From Candidatus Poribacteria bacterium (GTDB lineage: Bacteria > Poribacteria > WGA-4E > WGA-3G), in the NCBI GenBank assembly GCA_022828145.1, contig JAJEJA010000019.1:62001-126000 (forward strand): a stretch of 64,000 bases of DNA, in the 5' to 3' direction. Below, piece by piece: positions 33,226-44,000 of the stretch. The position numbers were made by a program, and so were the translations under genes. How positions within the stretch are numbered: the first letter of the stretch is position 1; every line of letters starts with the position of its first letter. The notes beneath the pieces were generated by a model. That model searched no databases. It was not told where the DNA came from and saw nothing but the letters and a program-made list of their open reading frames with translations.

Positions 33226-34359
33226 TTAGGGAATTTTTTCATCTTCTCTCTTCCATCGTTCAAGCGGATGTTCGCGTGATGTTAACGGCATATATACGCG
33301 TGCCTTTTGTCGGTGTGATTCCCATGTCGCATGAATCATTTCAAGGCAATCCCGTCCATCTCTACCACTTGCGAAGGGGTCTCGGTCTTCCTCAATTGCC
33401 GCAATAAGATCGCGTACCATCAGTCGTTGTAAAAACAGTCGTCTTGCCCCATTATCCCGTTGTTTTCCGTTCTCATCAATATCTTCGTCTGGTAAATGTA
33501 CCGGTTCCCACGCTTCTGCAGGTGTTTGATGTTGTCCTCTGTGGATAAACATCGTTGTGCCAACGCTTTCTCGGATTGCAATTCTGCCTTCGGTGCCGAT
33601 AATATCAATCCCGTATGCGTTGTCGTTAGTCTGCGGTTGCGCGATGAACTGCACATCGGCATGGATACCGTTTTTGAAGCGGAAAGAAACGTGCCCGCGT
33701 TCACCAAGAACCAACCCCGCATCTCGATCATGTGGATGGACTTCTTGTGTATGTTTGATGTCATTAACGGATGACTCTCGACCATCCATTTGCACGAGGT
33801 GTGCATGTGTCCATTCAACATCACCACCGAAAAGGCGCAACCAGTCATATAGATGTGTTCCCATCTCCATCAACGAATTACCCACCTTACGGCCACCCTT
33901 ATCGGTTGCCTTCATCAAGACAACATCGCCGATTTCACCTTTGTCAATAAGCGAGAGGACATAACGGTTGTATAGACTCGCACGTTTGATGTGATTGATG
34001 GCAAACTTGACATTTTGTGCATCGCAAGTTTTTACCATCTCATCGGCTTGAATAAGGTTGAGTGCAACCGGTTTTTCACAGAAGACATGGATACCGCGCC
34101 GTGCAGCTGCGATGGTAGGTGGATGGTGCATCGGTGCTTGCGTTGGCACGATAACAATGTCCGGTTTTTGTTCATCAAGCATCTTTTCATAGTCGTCATA
34201 GATTGCGTTGACACTGAATCGCTCACGCCATGCTTTTGCTCGGTCTGGATTGATTTCTGCTCCTGCCACAAGTTCACAGTTCGTTTCTAACTTTACTGCT
34301 TGGGCATGTGCTCCACCCATACCCCCCAAACCGATGATTGCAATACGGTAATTTTTCAT
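33226..34359 (-). CDS. Gfo/Idh/MocA-family oxidoreductase
   Basis: NAD(P)-dependent sugar or inositol oxidoreductase family. The Rossmann motif IIGLGGMGGAHAQ lies at the N-terminus, followed by the family signature VFCEKPVALN with the catalytic lysine, and a C-terminal beta-sheet domain including HVSFRFKNGIHADVQF. ATG 34359 is chosen since GGAG lies 6 bases upstream (an in-frame TTG at 34380 is less likely). The length (377) is normal. A strong promoter lies at 34402-34430. It heads a cluster with a hypothetical gene, a zinc ribbon and an SDR, probably a carbohydrate-modifying operon; the substrate is unknown. A decayed copy is at 36296-36954. Confidence 0.93.
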   Translation of the reverse strand: MKNYRIAIIGLGGMGGAHAQAVKLETNCELVAGAEINPDRAKAWRERFSVNAIYDDYEKMLDEQKPDIVIVPTQAPMHHPPTIAAARRGIHVFCEKPVALNLIQADEMVKTCDAQNVKFAINHIKRASLYNRYVLSLIDKGEIGDVVLMKATDKGGRKVGNSLMEMGTHLYDWLRLFGGDVEWTHAHLVQMDGRESSVNDIKHTQEVHPHDRDAGLVLGERGHVSFRFKNGIHADVQFIAQPQTNDNAYGIDIIGTEGRIAIRESVGTTMFIHRGQHQTPAEAWEPVHLPDEDIDENGKQRDNGARRLFLQRLMVRDLIAAIEEDRDPFASGRDGRDCLEMIHATWESHRQKARVYMPLTSREHPLERWKREDEKIP

Positions 34360-34401
34360 ATTAGTCTCCGAAGTTGACAAAAGATATCATTGATTACAAT
34401 T

Positions 34402-36295: not shown

Positions 36296-36954
36296 TTATT
36301 CTCCTTCTCTTTTGCAACGTCCAAGTGAATAGTCGCGTGGTATCAACGGCGTATATACGCGTGCTTTTTGTCGGTGTGATTCCCATGTCGCATGAATCAT
36401 TTCAAGGCAATCCTGTCCATCTCTATCGCTTATGTAGGGATCTCGGTCTTTCTCAATTGCCTCAATAAGTTCGGATACCATGAATCGTTGTAAAAACAAC
36501 CGTCTGGACCCATTATCAAGTTGTTTCCCATTCTCATCAATATCTTCGACTGGTAAATGTACCGGTTACCACGCTTCTGCAGGTGTCTGATGTTGTCCTC
36601 TGTGGATAAACATCGTTGTGCCAACGCTTTCTCGGATTGGTTTCTTCCTTCGGTACCGATAATGTCTATACCGTAGGCGTTACCGTTATTCTGCGGTGGC
36701 GCGATGAAGTGCACATCGGAATGGATACCGTTTTTGAAACGGAAAGAAACGTGCCCGCGTTCACCCAGAACCAATCCTGCATCTCAATCATGGGATAGAC
36801 TTGTTAACCTTGAATCGTTCACGCCATGCTTCCGCTCGTTTTTGGTTAATTTCTGCTCCTGCGACGAGTTCACAGTTCGCTTCTAACTTTACTGCTTGGG
36901 CATGTGCTCCACCCATCCCCCCAAGCCGATGATTGCAATACGGTACTTTTTCAA
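36296..36954 (-). pseudogene. Decayed copy of the Gfo/Idh/MocA oxidoreductase gene
   Basis: Highly similar to 33226-34359, but shortened by an internal deletion of roughly 0.45 kb around 36790-36800. It is frameshifted in the Rossmann motif (GLGG then a one-base loss) and the start ATG has become TTG (36952-36954). The upstream region, including the promoter TTGCAC-17-TATGAT, is also preserved (to about 37035), so a whole transcription unit was duplicated and then decayed. Confidence 0.9.
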
Positions 36955-36959
36955 ATTGG

Positions 36960-37417
36960 TCTCCGAAGTTGACAAAAGAAATCATTGATCACAACTATCA
37001 TAGCAACATCAGAATGATAGTGCAATAAAAACATTTTTGAACACACCTTTCCCTTTCAGTGAGGGTTCTACACACAACCCGTTCATCCAGCAGGCTTTAT
37101 ATTCTTCGTCAATAGGAACTTAGGGAATATCCAAGAAGGCACCAGTAGCAAGAGCAATCAACAGAAGGAAGGAACACACAGACAGGAAATAGAATACAGT
37201 GACGGTTATGCTTGTTTTCTAACACTACTCATGGTATTATAGTAATTCTGAAATATGTTGATTTTAGCTTTGTCGTTTATACTTGTTTGGGAAACTCAAA
37301 CTATAGACAACTGATAAATTGCCCTGTAACGAGATAAGTCAAAAGCCTTAGGGTTGTGTCTTGTAAGCTGCAGCTCTTTTGTCTTTGCTTCTAATTTCAA
37401 AATAAATAAGGTTGTTT
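36960..37417. other. Gene-free stretch between the decayed copy and the nuclease gene
   Basis: The first ~75 bases are the duplicated promoter region of the oxidoreductase. The rest shows no supported gene; on the minus strand around 37100-37230 a signal-peptide-like run with stops (VFYFLSVCSFLLLIALATGA) may be a remnant. No clear promoter for the nuclease gene was found. Confidence 0.4.
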
Positions 37418-38212
37418 ATGCCTACACTACCAGAACTACTTTCAGAAAGCAAATTAGATATTCAGGAAATTTCAAAATATTTCAATGACTTACTCTCTAA
37501 TGCAATCCAGAGAGTTAACACACACTTTAGCCCTCAGCGCTTATCCAAGCGCACCCGTCATGTAGAACCTTTGCCAATAGATAAACGCCAATTATCTAGT
37601 TATCGAACTCGTATCGGGACAATGCTTGAGTACGCTCTCAGCACTGAAATGAATGCTATCGTCAAAGAGAAATACAAAGGCAATTATTTATTAACCTTCG
37701 CTACTGCACATGAATATCCTGACTTCTATTTTCGTGATCACACACTAACTTTACTGCTTAGAATTGAGATGAAAGCTGTTGATGCTGAATCAGATGAGCA
37801 AGCTGCACGCTTCAGTACACCAACGCTATCTATTGATGCTAACAAAGATATGCTTCTATTAATCGGTTGGGAATGGAGGGACTTAGAACAAAGTGGAGAA
37901 ATTATTGGAGAATTCCCTTACATCTTTGCTGGTGTAATTTTGCCAGCAGGTGAAATAGCTAAAGAGCGCGATGTACGATTAGAAATAACAAAAGGAAAAA
38001 TTGAAGGCGCAAAAGTTCTAGTCTACAGCGAGAAGAAAAAGGAATTTGTACCTGACCCAGGCAACTATGGAAAACTTTGGCGTATTATTCATCAAAGCAG
38101 ACTAAATGCCGAAGATCTGAGTGATACAATACGCCGGTTCAAGAACTTCCTTGAAGAAGTTGATAAACATTCACCTAGAAATCGTTTAGGGGATAAAAAT
38201 GATAGAAATTAG
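37418..38212 (+). CDS. Putative PD-(D/E)XK restriction endonuclease
   Basis: A 264-residue protein without signal peptide. In the middle, HEYPDFYFRDHTLTLLLRIE followed by MKA gives PD...ExK, the catalytic signature of PD-(D/E)XK nucleases; a hydrophobic strand (DANKDMLLLIGWEW) follows. The assignment is supported by its convergent position, 20 bases from the stop of an adenine methylase-specificity gene (38233-40572). I infer that it is the nuclease of that system. ATG 37418 is preferred, with AAGG 6 bases upstream; TTG 37412 is an alternative. The family could not be named. Confidence 0.65.
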   Translation: MPTLPELLSESKLDIQEISKYFNDLLSNAIQRVNTHFSPQRLSKRTRHVEPLPIDKRQLSSYRTRIGTMLEYALSTEMNAIVKEKYKGNYLLTFATAHEYPDFYFRDHTLTLLLRIEMKAVDAESDEQAARFSTPTLSIDANKDMLLLIGWEWRDLEQSGEIIGEFPYIFAGVILPAGEIAKERDVRLEITKGKIEGAKVLVYSEKKKEFVPDPGNYGKLWRIIHQSRLNAEDLSDTIRRFKNFLEEVDKHSPRNRLGDKNDRN

Positions 38213-38232
38213 ACACGAACTCTCCAAGCATT

Positions 38233-40572
38233 CTACTTGGTTTTCTCTGGTATAGGGCAAAGTCTGTCACTTGCATGATTATACGCGGCTTCTAAAGCTT
38301 CCTTTCCTTCTTGTAATGCAATTTCGCTTCGAGTTCGACACTCAAGGTGATGTGTCCAAGCCATTTTGTAAGCGGCAACAATTTCACGCTGTACAGAAAG
38401 CGGAGGTAATGGAATTTTTAATCCAAGTACCGCTGATTGGTTAACTCTCGGGCGGCCGCTGCCTGTAATTTGATAAACCAATTGTCCGAAGACTATATCA
38501 CTACGAAGTATGAATGATAGATATTCTCTATCAACTTCGTATTTCTGTAAGAGTTTTCTCTTAGATGCTATATCTTCTAATAGAGGGTCACCGAAAGCAT
38601 CTTTTAATGTTCGAAAAACAAGACACTCTGACGAGACATAGCCGTCATCTTCATCGTCTCGAACTAAAACGCATTTGCGAAGTTCTGGCCGTAATTTTGA
38701 AAAAAGTATGTCTCTAGGTTGAAAACGGCGAACCCCGCTTTTCAGTTGGCGACCAAGAACATTGGATACACTATATTCGCCCGTTCCTGCACTAATATTT
38801 GCTAATCCTATATATTGCCACATCTCATCAGGATCTTGCGTTGCCGGTACCATCATTCTATTACGTACAACAACTAGTTCGGCTAGTTTTGGGATTGGAT
38901 AAATTGAACGATTTAATGTGCTTTCAGCGGTTGTACGAGATGGATGGTGAAATTGGACGTCAAGTCGTATCCCAACGTCCCCTATGCATCTTTCAACAGG
39001 ACATACAAATATTTTGGGTGATAAGTGTCTTATCTCTTGAGCATCACTTATAGTGTAGGTTTGCCAAGCTTGGACTACATCCGGCAAGTCACTCAAGAGT
39101 TCGCGAGGATTGTCTTTATCTCGTCGTTCAATATAAAGTGGATCTCCGTTTGGCTTTCGTCCTATTTGTTCCACATCTGCCATAAAAATGTGGGATTGTG
39201 CTTCCTGATAATCTTCTTTTTTACGTAAGAAGAGTATTGATGTTTTTGAACTTGAATACGGCATGAACGTGACATCAGGCAAACTAATCACTGCTTCTAC
39301 AATACAATGTTGAAAAATAAATCTTCGCACATCTTCATTTGAAGCACCATTTAACACACTATCTTCAATAATAATACCTAAACGGCCACTTGGTTTCAGC
39401 CAACGTATGCACCTTTCAATGAAAAGAATACCTCTACGGCGAGAAGATCTCCCACTCCCCAATTGATATCTTGAGATATCTGCTTTATCTGACAAATCAC
39501 TACCAAATGGTGGATTTGTCAAAATTATATCTAACCCATCTGGTTTAAAGAGATGGTTCAGGTTGTCTGAAAAACCAAGAGAGCCGTTGCCATCTAAGTG
39601 ATGAATGTTCCCATGTCCATCACCGTGCATAATAAGATTCATCTGTGCAACCCAGGCCATTCGTCTGTCAACCTCTAAGCCGATAATATGGTTTGATAGA
39701 TATTGAGAAATTTGATCTACGGAAAATTCTTCCTCTCCTTTTGAGAACAAGAGGCTGCCAACGTGCTTAGAAGCTTCTATTAAAAAACCACCACTGCCAC
39801 AAGCGGGGTCACACAAAGTTTGGCCCAATTGAGGGTTGATGAATCGTACCATAAACTCCACGACTTGCCGTGGAGTAAAAAACTGTTGATTATCTGACTT
39901 TTCAAATGTATTTCGAACTAACTCTTCATATACTGTCCCTTTTATATCTATAGGGATATTAGTCAGACTAACCGAATGGAGAAGTTCAACGATTCGGACA
40001 ACTGCTTGCTTATCCACACTTAGTTTACGTTGAGAATCCGTAAAAACATTAGGTAAAAGACTTACAGCTTTTTCATAAAGCCTTTCTATTCTTTGATAAG
40101 TTGTATTTAGAGACGCATCAGATGAACAATAAAACTGACTCGTGTAGTTATCCTTGACTTTATTTTGTCGTTCATCATAGAGTTTGCAGTACAGAATCTT
40201 TGATATTTCTTCAAAACGTTCAAGCAAACCACCCCCCATTGAATCGCGAAAAGCCCTGCTCATTTTCCGAACTAACAATCTAAGCGATCTAATGTCTTGA
40301 TCTGATTCTGACTGAAAGAATAAATCTGGGAATAATAAGGTCTGGGTATCAGTCTGATTAGTAAGAATATCTGATTTATATACCTCATCATTATTACTTT
40401 TATCGCGCAATATTCTCGTTACATCTTCAATTGTGTACAATCTATAACCGTTTATAGGATGGCGATGAGCTACAAGTTTTTTCGATTTATCCCAATTACG
40501 AAGTGTTGTCGGGGTTACACCTAATAATTCAGCAGCATCCTTAATTGAAAGATACTCAGATTTAGTATCCAT
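38233..40572 (-). CDS. MerR-type HTH - adenine DNA methylase - specificity domain fusion
   Basis: 779 residues with three parts. (1) Residues ~5-55: a MerR/excisionase-type winged helix (YLSIKDAAELLGVTPTTLRN, then NGYRLYTIEDVTRIL). (2) Residues ~85-500: a type I HsdM-like N6-adenine methylase with motif I CDPACGSGGFLIEA and catalytic LTNPPFGSD. (3) Residues ~530-760: a single HsdS-like target-recognition half with conserved tail TGSGRPRVNQSAVLGLKIP and LPPLSVQREIVAAY plus coiled coil. It would methylate adenine in a site defined by its own C-terminal domain. An N-terminal DNA-binding domain on a methylase is known to allow autoregulation in some systems. A perfect dyad overlapping its promoter (40588-40621) is a likely operator. 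The convergent neighbour 37418-38212 is the candidate nuclease. Confidence 0.92.
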   Translation of the reverse strand: MDTKSEYLSIKDAAELLGVTPTTLRNWDKSKKLVAHRHPINGYRLYTIEDVTRILRDKSNNDEVYKSDILTNQTDTQTLLFPDLFFQSESDQDIRSLRLLVRKMSRAFRDSMGGGLLERFEEISKILYCKLYDERQNKVKDNYTSQFYCSSDASLNTTYQRIERLYEKAVSLLPNVFTDSQRKLSVDKQAVVRIVELLHSVSLTNIPIDIKGTVYEELVRNTFEKSDNQQFFTPRQVVEFMVRFINPQLGQTLCDPACGSGGFLIEASKHVGSLLFSKGEEEFSVDQISQYLSNHIIGLEVDRRMAWVAQMNLIMHGDGHGNIHHLDGNGSLGFSDNLNHLFKPDGLDIILTNPPFGSDLSDKADISRYQLGSGRSSRRRGILFIERCIRWLKPSGRLGIIIEDSVLNGASNEDVRRFIFQHCIVEAVISLPDVTFMPYSSSKTSILFLRKKEDYQEAQSHIFMADVEQIGRKPNGDPLYIERRDKDNPRELLSDLPDVVQAWQTYTISDAQEIRHLSPKIFVCPVERCIGDVGIRLDVQFHHPSRTTAESTLNRSIYPIPKLAELVVVRNRMMVPATQDPDEMWQYIGLANISAGTGEYSVSNVLGRQLKSGVRRFQPRDILFSKLRPELRKCVLVRDDEDDGYVSSECLVFRTLKDAFGDPLLEDIASKRKLLQKYEVDREYLSFILRSDIVFGQLVYQITGSGRPRVNQSAVLGLKIPLPPLSVQREIVAAYKMAWTHHLECRTRSEIALQEGKEALEAAYNHASDRLCPIPEKTK

Positions 40573-40587
40573 TACAGAACTTCCTTT

Positions 40588-40647
40588 AATGTTTTATAAT
40601 GATTGATCACTATAAAACATTATAACTTATAATCTCTTTAATTGCAA
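40588..40647 (-). promoter_or_regulatory. Promoter with overlapping 11-bp dyad operator upstream of the HTH-methylase
   Basis: On the minus strand TTGCAA (40642-40647) and TATAAT (40619-40624) are spaced by 17 bases. A perfect inverted repeat AATGTTTTATA / TATAAAACATT (40588-40598 and 40611-40621, 12-base spacer) begins inside the -10 and ends ~16 bases before the start codon. Occupancy would block transcription. The HTH-methylase itself is the obvious candidate binder. Confidence 0.7.
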
Positions 40648-40759
40648 CTTAAAAAATGTTTCAGATTCTGTAGAGTCTTCGTACAGAGATTCGTGTAAAT
40701 TTGAGTTCGTTCCTCAGCATGCATATTGAGAATAGCATGTATATTGAAACTTTGAGTTA

Positions 40760-41005
40760 ATGATATATTTTTGTTCAATCGGGTTGTAGTCAGGTGAATA
40801 TGGAGGTAAAAACAAAAGTTCTGCTCCCGTTTTTTCAAGGTCTATAACTCTCAGCACGAAAACCGCATTCATCTATATAAACAGCAGACTTACCCTCGGT
40901 TTCTTGGCATGTGAGTTCTTTACAATAGGTTGCTCGTTTCTCATCACAGATGCCTCGTCTCCAGAAATAATAGATGTCTCGTGTCAAGAAACAAGAGCAG
41001 CAGGA
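40760..41005 (-). pseudogene. IS630-family transposase remnant
   Basis: On the minus strand two out-of-frame pieces are recognisable: KRATYCKELTCQE...AVYIDECGFRAES and, after a deletion, VIDLEKTGAELLFLPPYSPD followed by YNPIEQKY. These are the middle and C-terminal catalytic (D...DxxPxE-type) segments of IS630-like DDE transposases. Internal deletion and frameshift make it inactive. Confidence 0.8.
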
Positions 41006-41013
41006 TACTTTAG

Positions 41014-41033
41014 CGACAAAAACTTACACACCC
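41014..41033. repeat. Solo terminal repeat of the MITE family
   Basis: CGACAAAAACTTACACACCC matches the right terminus of the element at 62139-62469; no partner end is visible. Confidence 0.55.
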
Positions 41034-41042
41034 ATGCTATCC

Positions 41043-44000
41043 TTAGAACCCCATCATCGCCCGAACATAAGTTGTGATGCCTGTCGTATTTTGGAACAAA
41101 TGTGTGGTTCTACGGTACCCCGCAATAATAACTATATTGAATCCTACCCATTCACCTCTGTTAATTGCTTGAATCTCAAAAATACGCGTTCTAAGGTCAG
41201 CACGGTACTGATTTGGAACGCTAACAGAAGGTGAAAAAGATTGTATGTATTTCTTGAAATTATTATCTCTGTTCGTAAATTTCCTATATTGGAATCCCCC
41301 CAGTATATTTAATCTTTGTGTAAACTGATAATCCAAACGGACACCGATTATATCCTCTCGACTTCGTCTATTAAATCGCAAATATTCAACAGGTTGATCG
41401 TCAGTTGGAAGATACAACTTAGGGATGAGTATTTCTTTGATTTCCTCGTCAGTTCTGTCAAAAGCACGGTCCCATACATACTTGACCATCGGTGTTAACG
41501 TTATATCATAATTCAATCTGTTGATAAACGGGAATTCCCCGATCGGAATTGCGTATCTCGCCTTCAGAATGATAAGCTGATTACGACTGATCTTTTCAAC
41601 ATACCGTCGTTTTTTCCAATTGCTATCATCATAGATCAAACCTATATCAGTTGGGTCAAGTGCGTTAAGACCGTGGTCAGGGTAGAACGGATATACTCGC
41701 CTACTTCCAGCTACCCGAACCTGCTCAATTGGCACCATAAAGTCAACGCGTTGATCAGATTGAAAATCCTCCGATATAGGCTCGTATTGCACATCGGTGA
41801 AGAGTGCATTTATCGCATCCTGTTCAAACTGTTTTTGCAGGACAAGGAGTGATTTTGCTTCAAGTGTCAAGTTCGGCACTGCAGTATAGATGCATTGGAG
41901 TGTTGTTGTATTCAAACGTGCATTGTAAAAATCGAGATCATCATTTATGGGGATTGGCTGCAATTCGCCAACAGGTAAGGCTATTGTGTAATCAGGAATA
42001 TCATCTTGAACACGGACAAATCTATTTTGGATGTGGAAGCTGCCAAAATCGGGGATGTCGCGTTGATATGTGAGATGTATGTATTTTGAGTTGTTTCCTC
42101 TACGGCTTGAAATTTCACTCTCGTTTAGCCAACCCACTTGGACAGCAAGGTTATCAAGCAGATCGTACTTTACTTTGATATGATACCCTTGACGATCAAT
42201 CCCGTATTCGTATTGGGGTTCATAATCATCCTCAACTGTATCAACAACACCGTTATTATTGAGATCAATAATTCCTGTGAACACTGGCGGATCAGCATCG
42301 AAAATGAGAAAATCCTCTTGATAGTCAAATATACCGTTGTGGTCTCTGTCATCAGCACTTGGAAATACACCATCATAGTCGGAGTCATCGGGAAATCCAT
42401 CATCATCATCGTCATCCTCAATGAGTGTATAATTGACTGCATCCCAGGGCACTCGTTCATCCACAAGGGTTTCCATTTGGTCCGGTAATGCCGTGTAGAT
42501 TTGACCTCGGCCTGCGAATGCACCAAAATTCAGATAATTGGTTGTGTAGCCTGGATCAATATGATATAAAGTACCTTCTAAATGCAGTCTATCAAAACGG
42601 GATTCAAGTTGGACGAACCAGGCTGTTTCTCTACCGAGTTTTCCATTACCATCTTCATCTGTTCCATCACCACCTAAAAATGCCTCAAACCGTTCCCCTT
42701 CGGTTACCGAATAGGTTGGTATGCCATTAGCATCTACGGGAAGACCACTACTTTCATTTATAGTGACACCTGTTGGTACCTGTCCATCAAGAGATCGTAA
42801 AGTTGTTTTGGTTCGACTATATCCTACTTTATCCTCAGGAATGGTAGGATACTGTTTATATTTACCATTTACAGAGTAGTGCGTTTTGACGCGGACATTG
42901 CCGATAGTACCTTCAAGGTCTATCCCGTAGAGAGTTGCTGCACGGGCAGCACCATAACGGTATTGGACTTTTCGTGGTCTGCCTTCACCTGTCCATTGAC
43001 TTGGATTGTCTTTGAGTTTTTCTCTATTATGGATGTATTCTGGGGCTTGTCCATAATTGCCCGGTGCCTGAATTATGTCACGATACGGCATCTGAATATG
43101 TCCATCTTCAGTTTTAATCCACTCTTGTAGTTCAGAGTTTTGCTGTGCTCTATTTGCCTCACTCATGCCGACAACCGAGATATTGTAATCACCCGCAACA
43201 ACCATATCAAATACAACGGATTTAACGGTTCGTGGATCAATGTTGATCTTCTCATCAGAAAGAGTCAAGTCATATTTCATTTTATTGAAACCTGTGACAA
43301 TCTTCCACTTTTTGTCAATAGAATCACGAATTTCGGATGGACCACCAGCGTGATTTATCGGCACAAGTTGGTCTGCCTTAACGACAAACTGACTCGTCTT
43401 TTGGGGTAAGAGTTTGGGTTTAATACCCTTTTCTATAGCTTCAATCGTTAATTCTTCAAGTTCCTGAGTAACAATAGTAACCGTCATACTTTTGAAAGCA
43501 GCACCGACACCACCTTGGATATTCTTGCTATGTAAACTATCACTGTATGCCTCAAAATCAGTAAATGCGTTTGTATGATTATCCTCTGGTGAGTCATCAC
43601 GGAATACGACAGAGATGGTTTCTGGTGGTGTATTAGCGACAGTCCCCATCAGTGAATCTATGAGTCGCTCTGGATGTTCTTTATGCAAATTCAGATAAGT
43701 AAATCCGACGCGGAACATCTCCCCTAATAGTCCTTGTCCGCGAAAACCGACGAGTCTCGCGTTTTCTATGTTCCTGACACCTGAAAATGGGTTCAACCCA
43801 GTTCGTCTTCCTTGCTGCTGTCCAAGGTTTTGCGCCTGACCTTCTTCTAATTGAACAGGATTAGAAATGCTTGAGTGGATGAGTGTAAAGAGATGATGCT
43901 CTTGGGCAAAAGAAACATCACACCGAAGTCCATCAAACTCGGTTTTGTAGATTATATATCGGTTTGGAAACAGGGTATCAGGTCTTAAGCGCAGATGATC

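Follow-up and report, generated by a model that had tools for sequence, protein, structure and literature searches.

The window examined here, 64,000 nucleotides of a Candidatus Poribacteria genome (contig JAJEJA010000019.1, positions 62,001 to 126,000), contains a two-gene restriction-modification unit in which a DNA methylase gene and a candidate nuclease gene converge. We consider it likely that this methylase regulates its own synthesis; autogenous control by the methylase, in a DrdI-type convergent two-gene unit that has no separate controller (C) protein, is the best explanation of what the sequence presents. This reading is built on the domains of the two proteins, on their homology to a pair of proteins encoded by the DrdI plasmid, and on an operator that is conserved together with a helix-turn-helix (HTH) domain of the methylase. 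The parts of the unit are as follows, in window coordinates.

37396 to 40657: unit conserved with four Poribacteria relatives; it opens shortly ahead of the nuclease start and runs slightly past the methylase -35 box
38233 to 40572, minus strand: methylase-specificity fusion of 779 amino acids (Pfam, S-subunit structure match, alignment, structure model)
Domains of the fusion, by residue: HTH 9-46; linker about 59-92 (low confidence); N6 gamma-methyltransferase (MTase) 209-474; target recognition domain (TRD) 577-746; helix 725-771
40435 to 40548, minus strand: codons of the MerR-type HTH, residues 9-46 (Pfam)
40619 to 40647, minus strand: TTGCAA-17-TATAAT, promoter-like, ahead of the methylase gene and retained by all five Poribacteria copies
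40587 to 40622: full dyad of the window copy, with perfect 12-bp arms and a 12-bp gap
40592 to 40617: 26-bp operator core, TTTTATAG-n10-TTATAAAA as read on the minus strand, the part conserved across phyla
37418 to 38212, plus strand: candidate restriction nuclease of 264 amino acids, PD-(D/E)xK type (PADLOC, alignment, structure model)
38224 to 38240, plus strand: terminator-like hairpin at the tail-to-tail junction; such matches are no commoner than in shuffles

An earlier note on this DNA had described an N-terminal HTH on a methylase-specificity fusion, and MerR, N6_Mtase and S-subunit matches bear this out. Pfam places PF00376 (MerR) on residues 9-46 (E 2.5e-10, 40.5 bits against a cut-off of 28.2) and PF02384 (N6_Mtase) on residues 209-474 (E 5.6e-43), with the motifs DPACGSGGF and NPPF. 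There is one specificity half: residues 577-746 resemble solved Type I S subunits (3okg and 5ybb_D, E about 6e-9), and Pfam Methylase_S at residues 678-733 falls slightly below its cut-off (20.9 vs 22). The HTH is a MerR-type winged HTH, which a model built from nine relatives places at residues 10-29, followed by a strand (44-47), a helix (48-60) and then the low-confidence linker; its core, TTLRNWDK..KL, is unchanged in all six diverse fusions aligned. The model ends in a long helix (residues 725-771, with pLDDT blocks of 84-93 to residue 770), a predicted dimerisation helix that fits a homodimeric gamma-MTase of the DrdI type. The NCBIfam match to HspR is weak and far under its cut-off, and among the phage matches listed for the methylase (the best 15 of 102 records) none reaches the HTH. 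Two other identities were rejected: a MADS methylase, the NCBIfam MAD2 match being 245 bits against a cut-off of 720, and a Type I system, as there is no HsdR, the partner is the 264-amino acid nuclease, and there is a single recognition domain.

The gene for this fusion is preceded by TTGCAA-17-TATAAT with a -10 box that overlaps the dyad, as the earlier note had stated; the perfect arms are 12 bp long, slightly over the 11 bp it had claimed. The dyad also covers the probable transcription start, with the operator 45 bases before the methylase start codon, and it can alternatively be read as 17-bp arms of 94% identity around a 2-bp gap. It is the sole inverted repeat of at least 10 bp detected in 40400-40800, and its score was reached by none of 2000 dinucleotide shuffles, although the consensus scored was drawn partly from this dyad. 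TTGCAA-17-TATAAT-like matches are not enriched in the region (13 against a shuffle mean of 12.0), and since they are equally common in shuffles the weight of this promoter rests on its conservation; the dyad, like the promoter, is kept in every one of the five Poribacteria copies. On the plus strand, ATTACA-18-TATAAT at 40571-40600 is a possible antisense promoter; because the operator is palindromic, there is a TATAAT box on the opposite strand too.

The nuclease and methylase genes lie tail to tail with 20 bases between their stop codons, and this spacing and a set of invariant residues agree with the convergent PD...ExK candidate of the earlier note. E71, P101-D102, E117 and K119 are invariant across 10 aligned members, including the DrdI candidate discussed below. 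The start at ATG 37418 is backed by the relatives, and PADLOC labels the protein a Type II restriction enzyme (PDLC03462, E 6.6e-23); Pfam and NCBIfam gave nothing for it. The structure model is confident (pLDDT 89), and a fold search of the Protein Data Bank put SwaI and EcoRV entries on top at a TM score of about 0.3, with none of 341 matches at E 0.001 or better; the sequence gave a single match to solved structures, at E 0.79. No separate C-like controller gene was found among frames of at least 60 amino acids in the 3.26-kb conserved unit, where every other such frame either runs antisense within the methylase gene or has its start at the edge of that gene.

The closest characterised relative of the unit is DrdI. 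Among 72,556 plasmid records the sole relative of the nuclease is on pDrdI of Deinococcus wulumuqiensis 479, which also carries the best full-length relative of the methylase. The methylases of pDrdI are M.DrdI (GACN6GTC, N6-methyladenine), an inactive Type I enzyme and a cytosine-5 enzyme (PMC6430315). Two pDrdI proteins are relatives of the window methylase; one of them has an insertion sequence (IS) and a short S gene of about 130 codons as neighbours, so we take the other, fused one to be M.DrdI by elimination. A 396-amino acid pDrdI protein matches PDLC03462 across 396 of 396 positions (943 bits), and this end-to-end match suggests that it is the candidate R.DrdI; the window nuclease thus has homologues, on which the earlier note's reading depended, in the form of a DrdI-plasmid restriction enzyme candidate. 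PMC3874165 describes M.DrdI as a homodimer in which a gamma-MTase is fused to one GAC-reading domain. Like the window unit, DrdI has a gamma-MTase fused to a single TRD (35-37% identity over residues 78-766) and a separate nuclease (28-32% identical, with identical invariant residues). Unlike the window enzyme, M.DrdI begins after the HTH, with no MerR match and no such operator, and the DrdI nuclease is 396 amino acids long, in a divergent gene pair separated by an IS4 transposase gene and a small gene of hypothetical product. The window unit has the DrdI-type Type II layout, that of a homodimeric gamma-methylase, so the earlier note was right that a single-half specificity domain with a stand-alone small nuclease is not the standard Type I arrangement, but the arrangement is a known one and not odd. 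Within the window GACNxGTC occurs 9 times for x=6 and 5 to 12 times for other x from 3 to 9; the counts being similar, they give no sign for or against GACN6GTC as the target. Neither GAC nor GTC occurs in 40571-40660.

Because adenine methylases are too common, the nuclease was used as bait in our survey for related units. A scan of 84,980 species genomes gave 32 pattern matches, which yielded 11 loci, and of these L038 and L039 are Poribacteria copies already seen. Whole-genome searches, with seeds counted, found units in 5 of 84 Poribacteria, 6 of 340 genomes of the order to which the Microcystis genome belongs and 3 of 346 of the class Anaerolineae; in four other groups (395, 294, 64 and 246 genomes) the seed alone was found. 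Few units were added in this way to those of the species scan, and scans of viral contigs found no copies. With pDrdI the survey comprises 21 units, 11 with the HTH, 8 without it, and two with HTH status unassigned (L045, cut by a contig end, and L064, which has a nuclease and no methylase in the 11.5 kb read). The earlier note had proposed that the same three-part fusion be sought elsewhere, and it recurs in five phyla: five Poribacteria including the window, Latescibacteria (L040), cyanobacteria (L041 and L060), Ignavibacteria (L043) and Bacteroidetes (L042 and L044). All 11 HTH-bearing methylase genes are convergent with the nuclease gene or its remnant (stop codons 11-34 bases apart in nine, overlapping in L043, and not reckoned in L044), and none of the 8 HTH-less units is convergent: L009 is divergent, L048 and L063 have a fused methylase followed co-directionally by the nuclease, and L046, L047, L061, L062 and L065 have separate co-directional S, R and M genes. 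This last is a second layout of the nuclease family, resembling AhdI-type systems, and in its M proteins HsdM_N replaces the HTH (four of four scanned).

Of nine aligned fusions, eight match MerR at E 0.001 or better, and the remaining one can only be L048, which has no HTH; among seven scanned methylases taken as HTH-less, M.DrdI included, there was no match even with E allowed up to 1. The start sequence of the L065 methylase, which was outside the Pfam scan, shows no HTH resembling that of the window. In a tree of 21 methylases, two rows of which are Type I enzymes of the window's own genome, the HTH fusions form one clade (support 96/99), and in 97% of 200 bootstrap trees a single change accounts for the HTH. 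Next to this clade, on long branches of less certain placement, are M.DrdI, L048 and L063.

Across the relatives the operator is a 26-bp dyad, TTTTATAA-n10-TTATAAAA, which is part of a perfect 34-bp palindrome in two of them (G018 and G042). We trained a site matrix of two 8-bp arms on the five Poribacteria sites alone and scanned the 150 bp before each start codon, with p values taken from 5000 dinucleotide shuffles each; this is a fairer test than a post-hoc consensus drawn after the sites had been seen, although the geometry was known beforehand. The matrix finds the operator in all four non-cyanobacterial HTH relatives beyond Poribacteria, with scores of 12.5-23.1:

Latescibacteria L040: 42 bases before the start, p 0.0004
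Bacteroidetes L042: 46 bases before the start, p 0.0018
Bacteroidetes L044: 45 bases before the start, p 0.0002
Ignavibacteria L043: 44 bases before the start, p 0.013

The dyad that the earlier note had placed upstream of the window gene, and had suggested looking for upstream of its homologues, is thus present 42-46 bases before the start in nine of the 11 HTH units. The HTH-less fusions score at chance in three cases of three (M.DrdI p 0.42, L048 p 0.90, L063 p 0.23), and four S-first operons gave scores of 6.8, -1.8, 4.4 and 6.5 (p 0.03-0.34), with starts misplaced in three of them and L065 left out. L042, L043 and L044 have a second operator copy 35 bp farther upstream, and such paired sites may permit cooperative binding.

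The control that these findings suggest would operate as follows. The methylase would be a homodimer in which two gamma-MTase domains, and one TRD present in two copies, act on an interrupted palindrome, while cleavage of target that lacks methylation would fall to the separate nuclease of PD-(D/E)xK type. The methylase polypeptide would have gained a MerR-type HTH, and its dimer could set two of these on the 26-bp dyad at the -10 edge and the probable start; because the dyad overlaps the -10 box and covers that start, a bound dimer would block polymerase. Once enough methylase is present its own transcription would be lowered. Direct control would reach the methylase alone; any effect on the nuclease would be indirect, by way of convergent transcription, since the scored nuclease promoters lack the operator. 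Self-repression of the methylase through the dyad, in place of a C protein, was the central proposal of the earlier note and gains support from these comparisons; that the outcome is repression, as distinct from binding or activation, we infer.

It is conceivable that the HTH, being of the MerR family, binds the dyad and activates its own promoter in the manner of the classical MerR activators. Such activators use promoters with 19-20-bp spacers and a dyad between the boxes, and MerR-family repressors such as HspR and GlnR also exist. The window promoter is ill suited to a MerR activator because its spacer has the ordinary length of 17 bp and its dyad covers the -10 edge and the probable start instead of standing between the boxes; activation therefore seems improbable to us. 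The dyad might instead be the site of an unrelated host regulator, with the HTH in another role, for instance tethering the enzyme to DNA. The cyanobacterial HTH proteins without a full dyad favour this idea, but in four phyla (Poribacteria, Latescibacteria, Ignavibacteria and Bacteroidetes) the operator accompanies the HTH, it is absent from the three HTH-less fusions, and a pattern with no second genomic site at one mismatch or fewer fits a host regulon poorly; we would put little weight on it. Very hard to credit is a role for the dyad as an RNA hairpin in the 5' leader. The window leader does fold well (-15.3 kcal/mol, z -5.9), as would any palindrome, yet the leaders of L040 and L044, both of which keep the DNA site, show no advantage over shuffles in folding (z 0.75 and 0.67), and three units hold the second upstream copy.

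A further reading, which is compatible with autogenous control, is that the unit is a relic in which the nuclease is unexpressed here and the methylase alone is active. In its favour, the 366 bp at 37031-37396 differ from the DNA of the Poribacteria relatives, which keep the nuclease promoter at that position, and nothing in the other loci compared matches them significantly; moreover, nuclease genes are damaged in two other HTH units, G042, where the first part of the gene is missing, and L044, where the frame contains a stop. This damage could be an assembly fault; if it is real, the methylase has outlasted the nuclease in two of the 11 HTH units. Against it, the window nuclease frame is whole, equals those of the relatives in length and keeps the invariant catalytic residues, although its promoter may be new or lost. 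We regard the relic as unlikely but well worth bearing in mind.

Several findings weigh against autogenous control by the methylase or temper the case for it. Two of the 11 HTH copies, the near-identical cyanobacterial L041 and L060, lack the 26-bp dyad; the Microcystis copy L041 has one good dyad half (9.4, p 0.0064) and 10-bp inverted half-sites with a 21-bp gap, TTATAAGGTT-n21-AACCTTATAA. The operator was found at none of 11 nuclease promoters scored (best 8-11 of 16), a set that includes L045 and leaves out the damaged G042 copy. In the window's own genome (5.06 Mb) the operator pattern, allowing one mismatch, occurs only at the methylase promoter, but a control pattern (the operator read backwards) is also found once, so a single genomic operator is not by itself above chance. 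The methylase model is middling, with a mean pLDDT of 75 and values of 69-79 for residues 11-50. Finally, since all HTH units descend from one fusion, the joint occurrence of HTH, operator and convergence represents few independent events, not eleven.

More tentatively, and with odds that we would place somewhat short of even, a single MerR-HTH/DrdI-type adenine-methylase fusion may have spread over five phyla as a timing switch that needs no C protein. In a new host the unrepressed methylase promoter would fire first and its convergent transcription would enter the nuclease gene; as methylase dimers fill the operator, that transcription would drop and the operator-less nuclease would be released. 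One twofold symmetry would read both the interrupted palindrome and the operator.

The block conserved among the Poribacteria ends upstream at 40647-40657, and blastn found no kinship among the Poribacteria relatives in the 385 bp directly upstream (40658-41042). A frame remnant with FLPPYSPDYNPIEQ lies on the minus strand at 40658-41043, directly upstream of the methylase promoter, and presumably resembles the end of an IS630-type transposase. At the other end, 36304-37031 holds an oxidoreductase gene broken into several short frames; its counterpart in L038 and L039 flanks the unit as an open frame, and a whole paralogue lies at 33226-34380. Before the nuclease start L010-L013 share a promoter-like stretch in which, by eye, a small dyad of about TAYCA-n4-TGRTA stands ahead of CATAAT or TATAAT; in L011 the box follows TTGCTT by about 20 bp. 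The geometry is that of a MerR-type activated promoter, with a half-site unlike the operator. In L012 and L044 methylase frames are intact alongside the damaged nuclease genes.

Regulators joined to restriction-modification enzymes are known in other forms. The dual-function methylases of EcoRII, SsoII, Ecl18kI and ScrFI share with the window enzyme an N-terminal HTH and an operator over their own promoter. Self-repressing methylases are a known principle (PMC3874152, PMC12707154), and M.SsoII is a cytosine-5 methylase (PMC3978073). The dual-function enzymes differ from the window enzyme in being of the cytosine-5 class, whereas it is a gamma-class N6-type enzyme (N6_Mtase, NPPF) with a MerR-type HTH; in Ecl18kI two promoters overlap, whereas here the genes converge. 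We take the EcoRII, Ecl18kI and ScrFI methylases also to be cytosine-5 enzymes. AhdI and Esp1396I, C-protein systems, share convergent R and M genes (PMC5333194), and M.AhdI recognises an interrupted palindrome through two copies of one specificity, with separate M and S chains (2M+2S; PMC3874165). They differ in that control falls to a small stand-alone C protein, co-transcribed with the nuclease, whereas for the window unit neither a C-like gene nor an operator at the nuclease promoter was found. C-REase fusions such as CR.NsoJS138I (PMC3850674) likewise fuse a regulator to one enzyme of the restriction pair, but there a C protein is on the nuclease and here a MerR-type HTH is on the methylase.

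How the nuclease is delayed when a restriction-modification system enters a new cell is a standing question that has been studied mainly with C proteins and a few self-repressing methylases. Our literature search, with most subscription journals and REBASE outside its scope, found no MerR-type HTH on an adenine methylase, and the MerR head on a DrdI-type adenine methylase looks new. As judged from sequence, the window methylase very probably turns its own gene down, which we found described only for other classes of methylase. A Type I-like gamma-class adenine methylase appears to have gained self-control independently, by means of a different HTH family and a different arrangement of genes, and the operator is legible base by base over four phyla. 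If this is true, two genes and one site would make up a small system in which experiments could tease apart the dose of methylase, the reading of the target and the timing.

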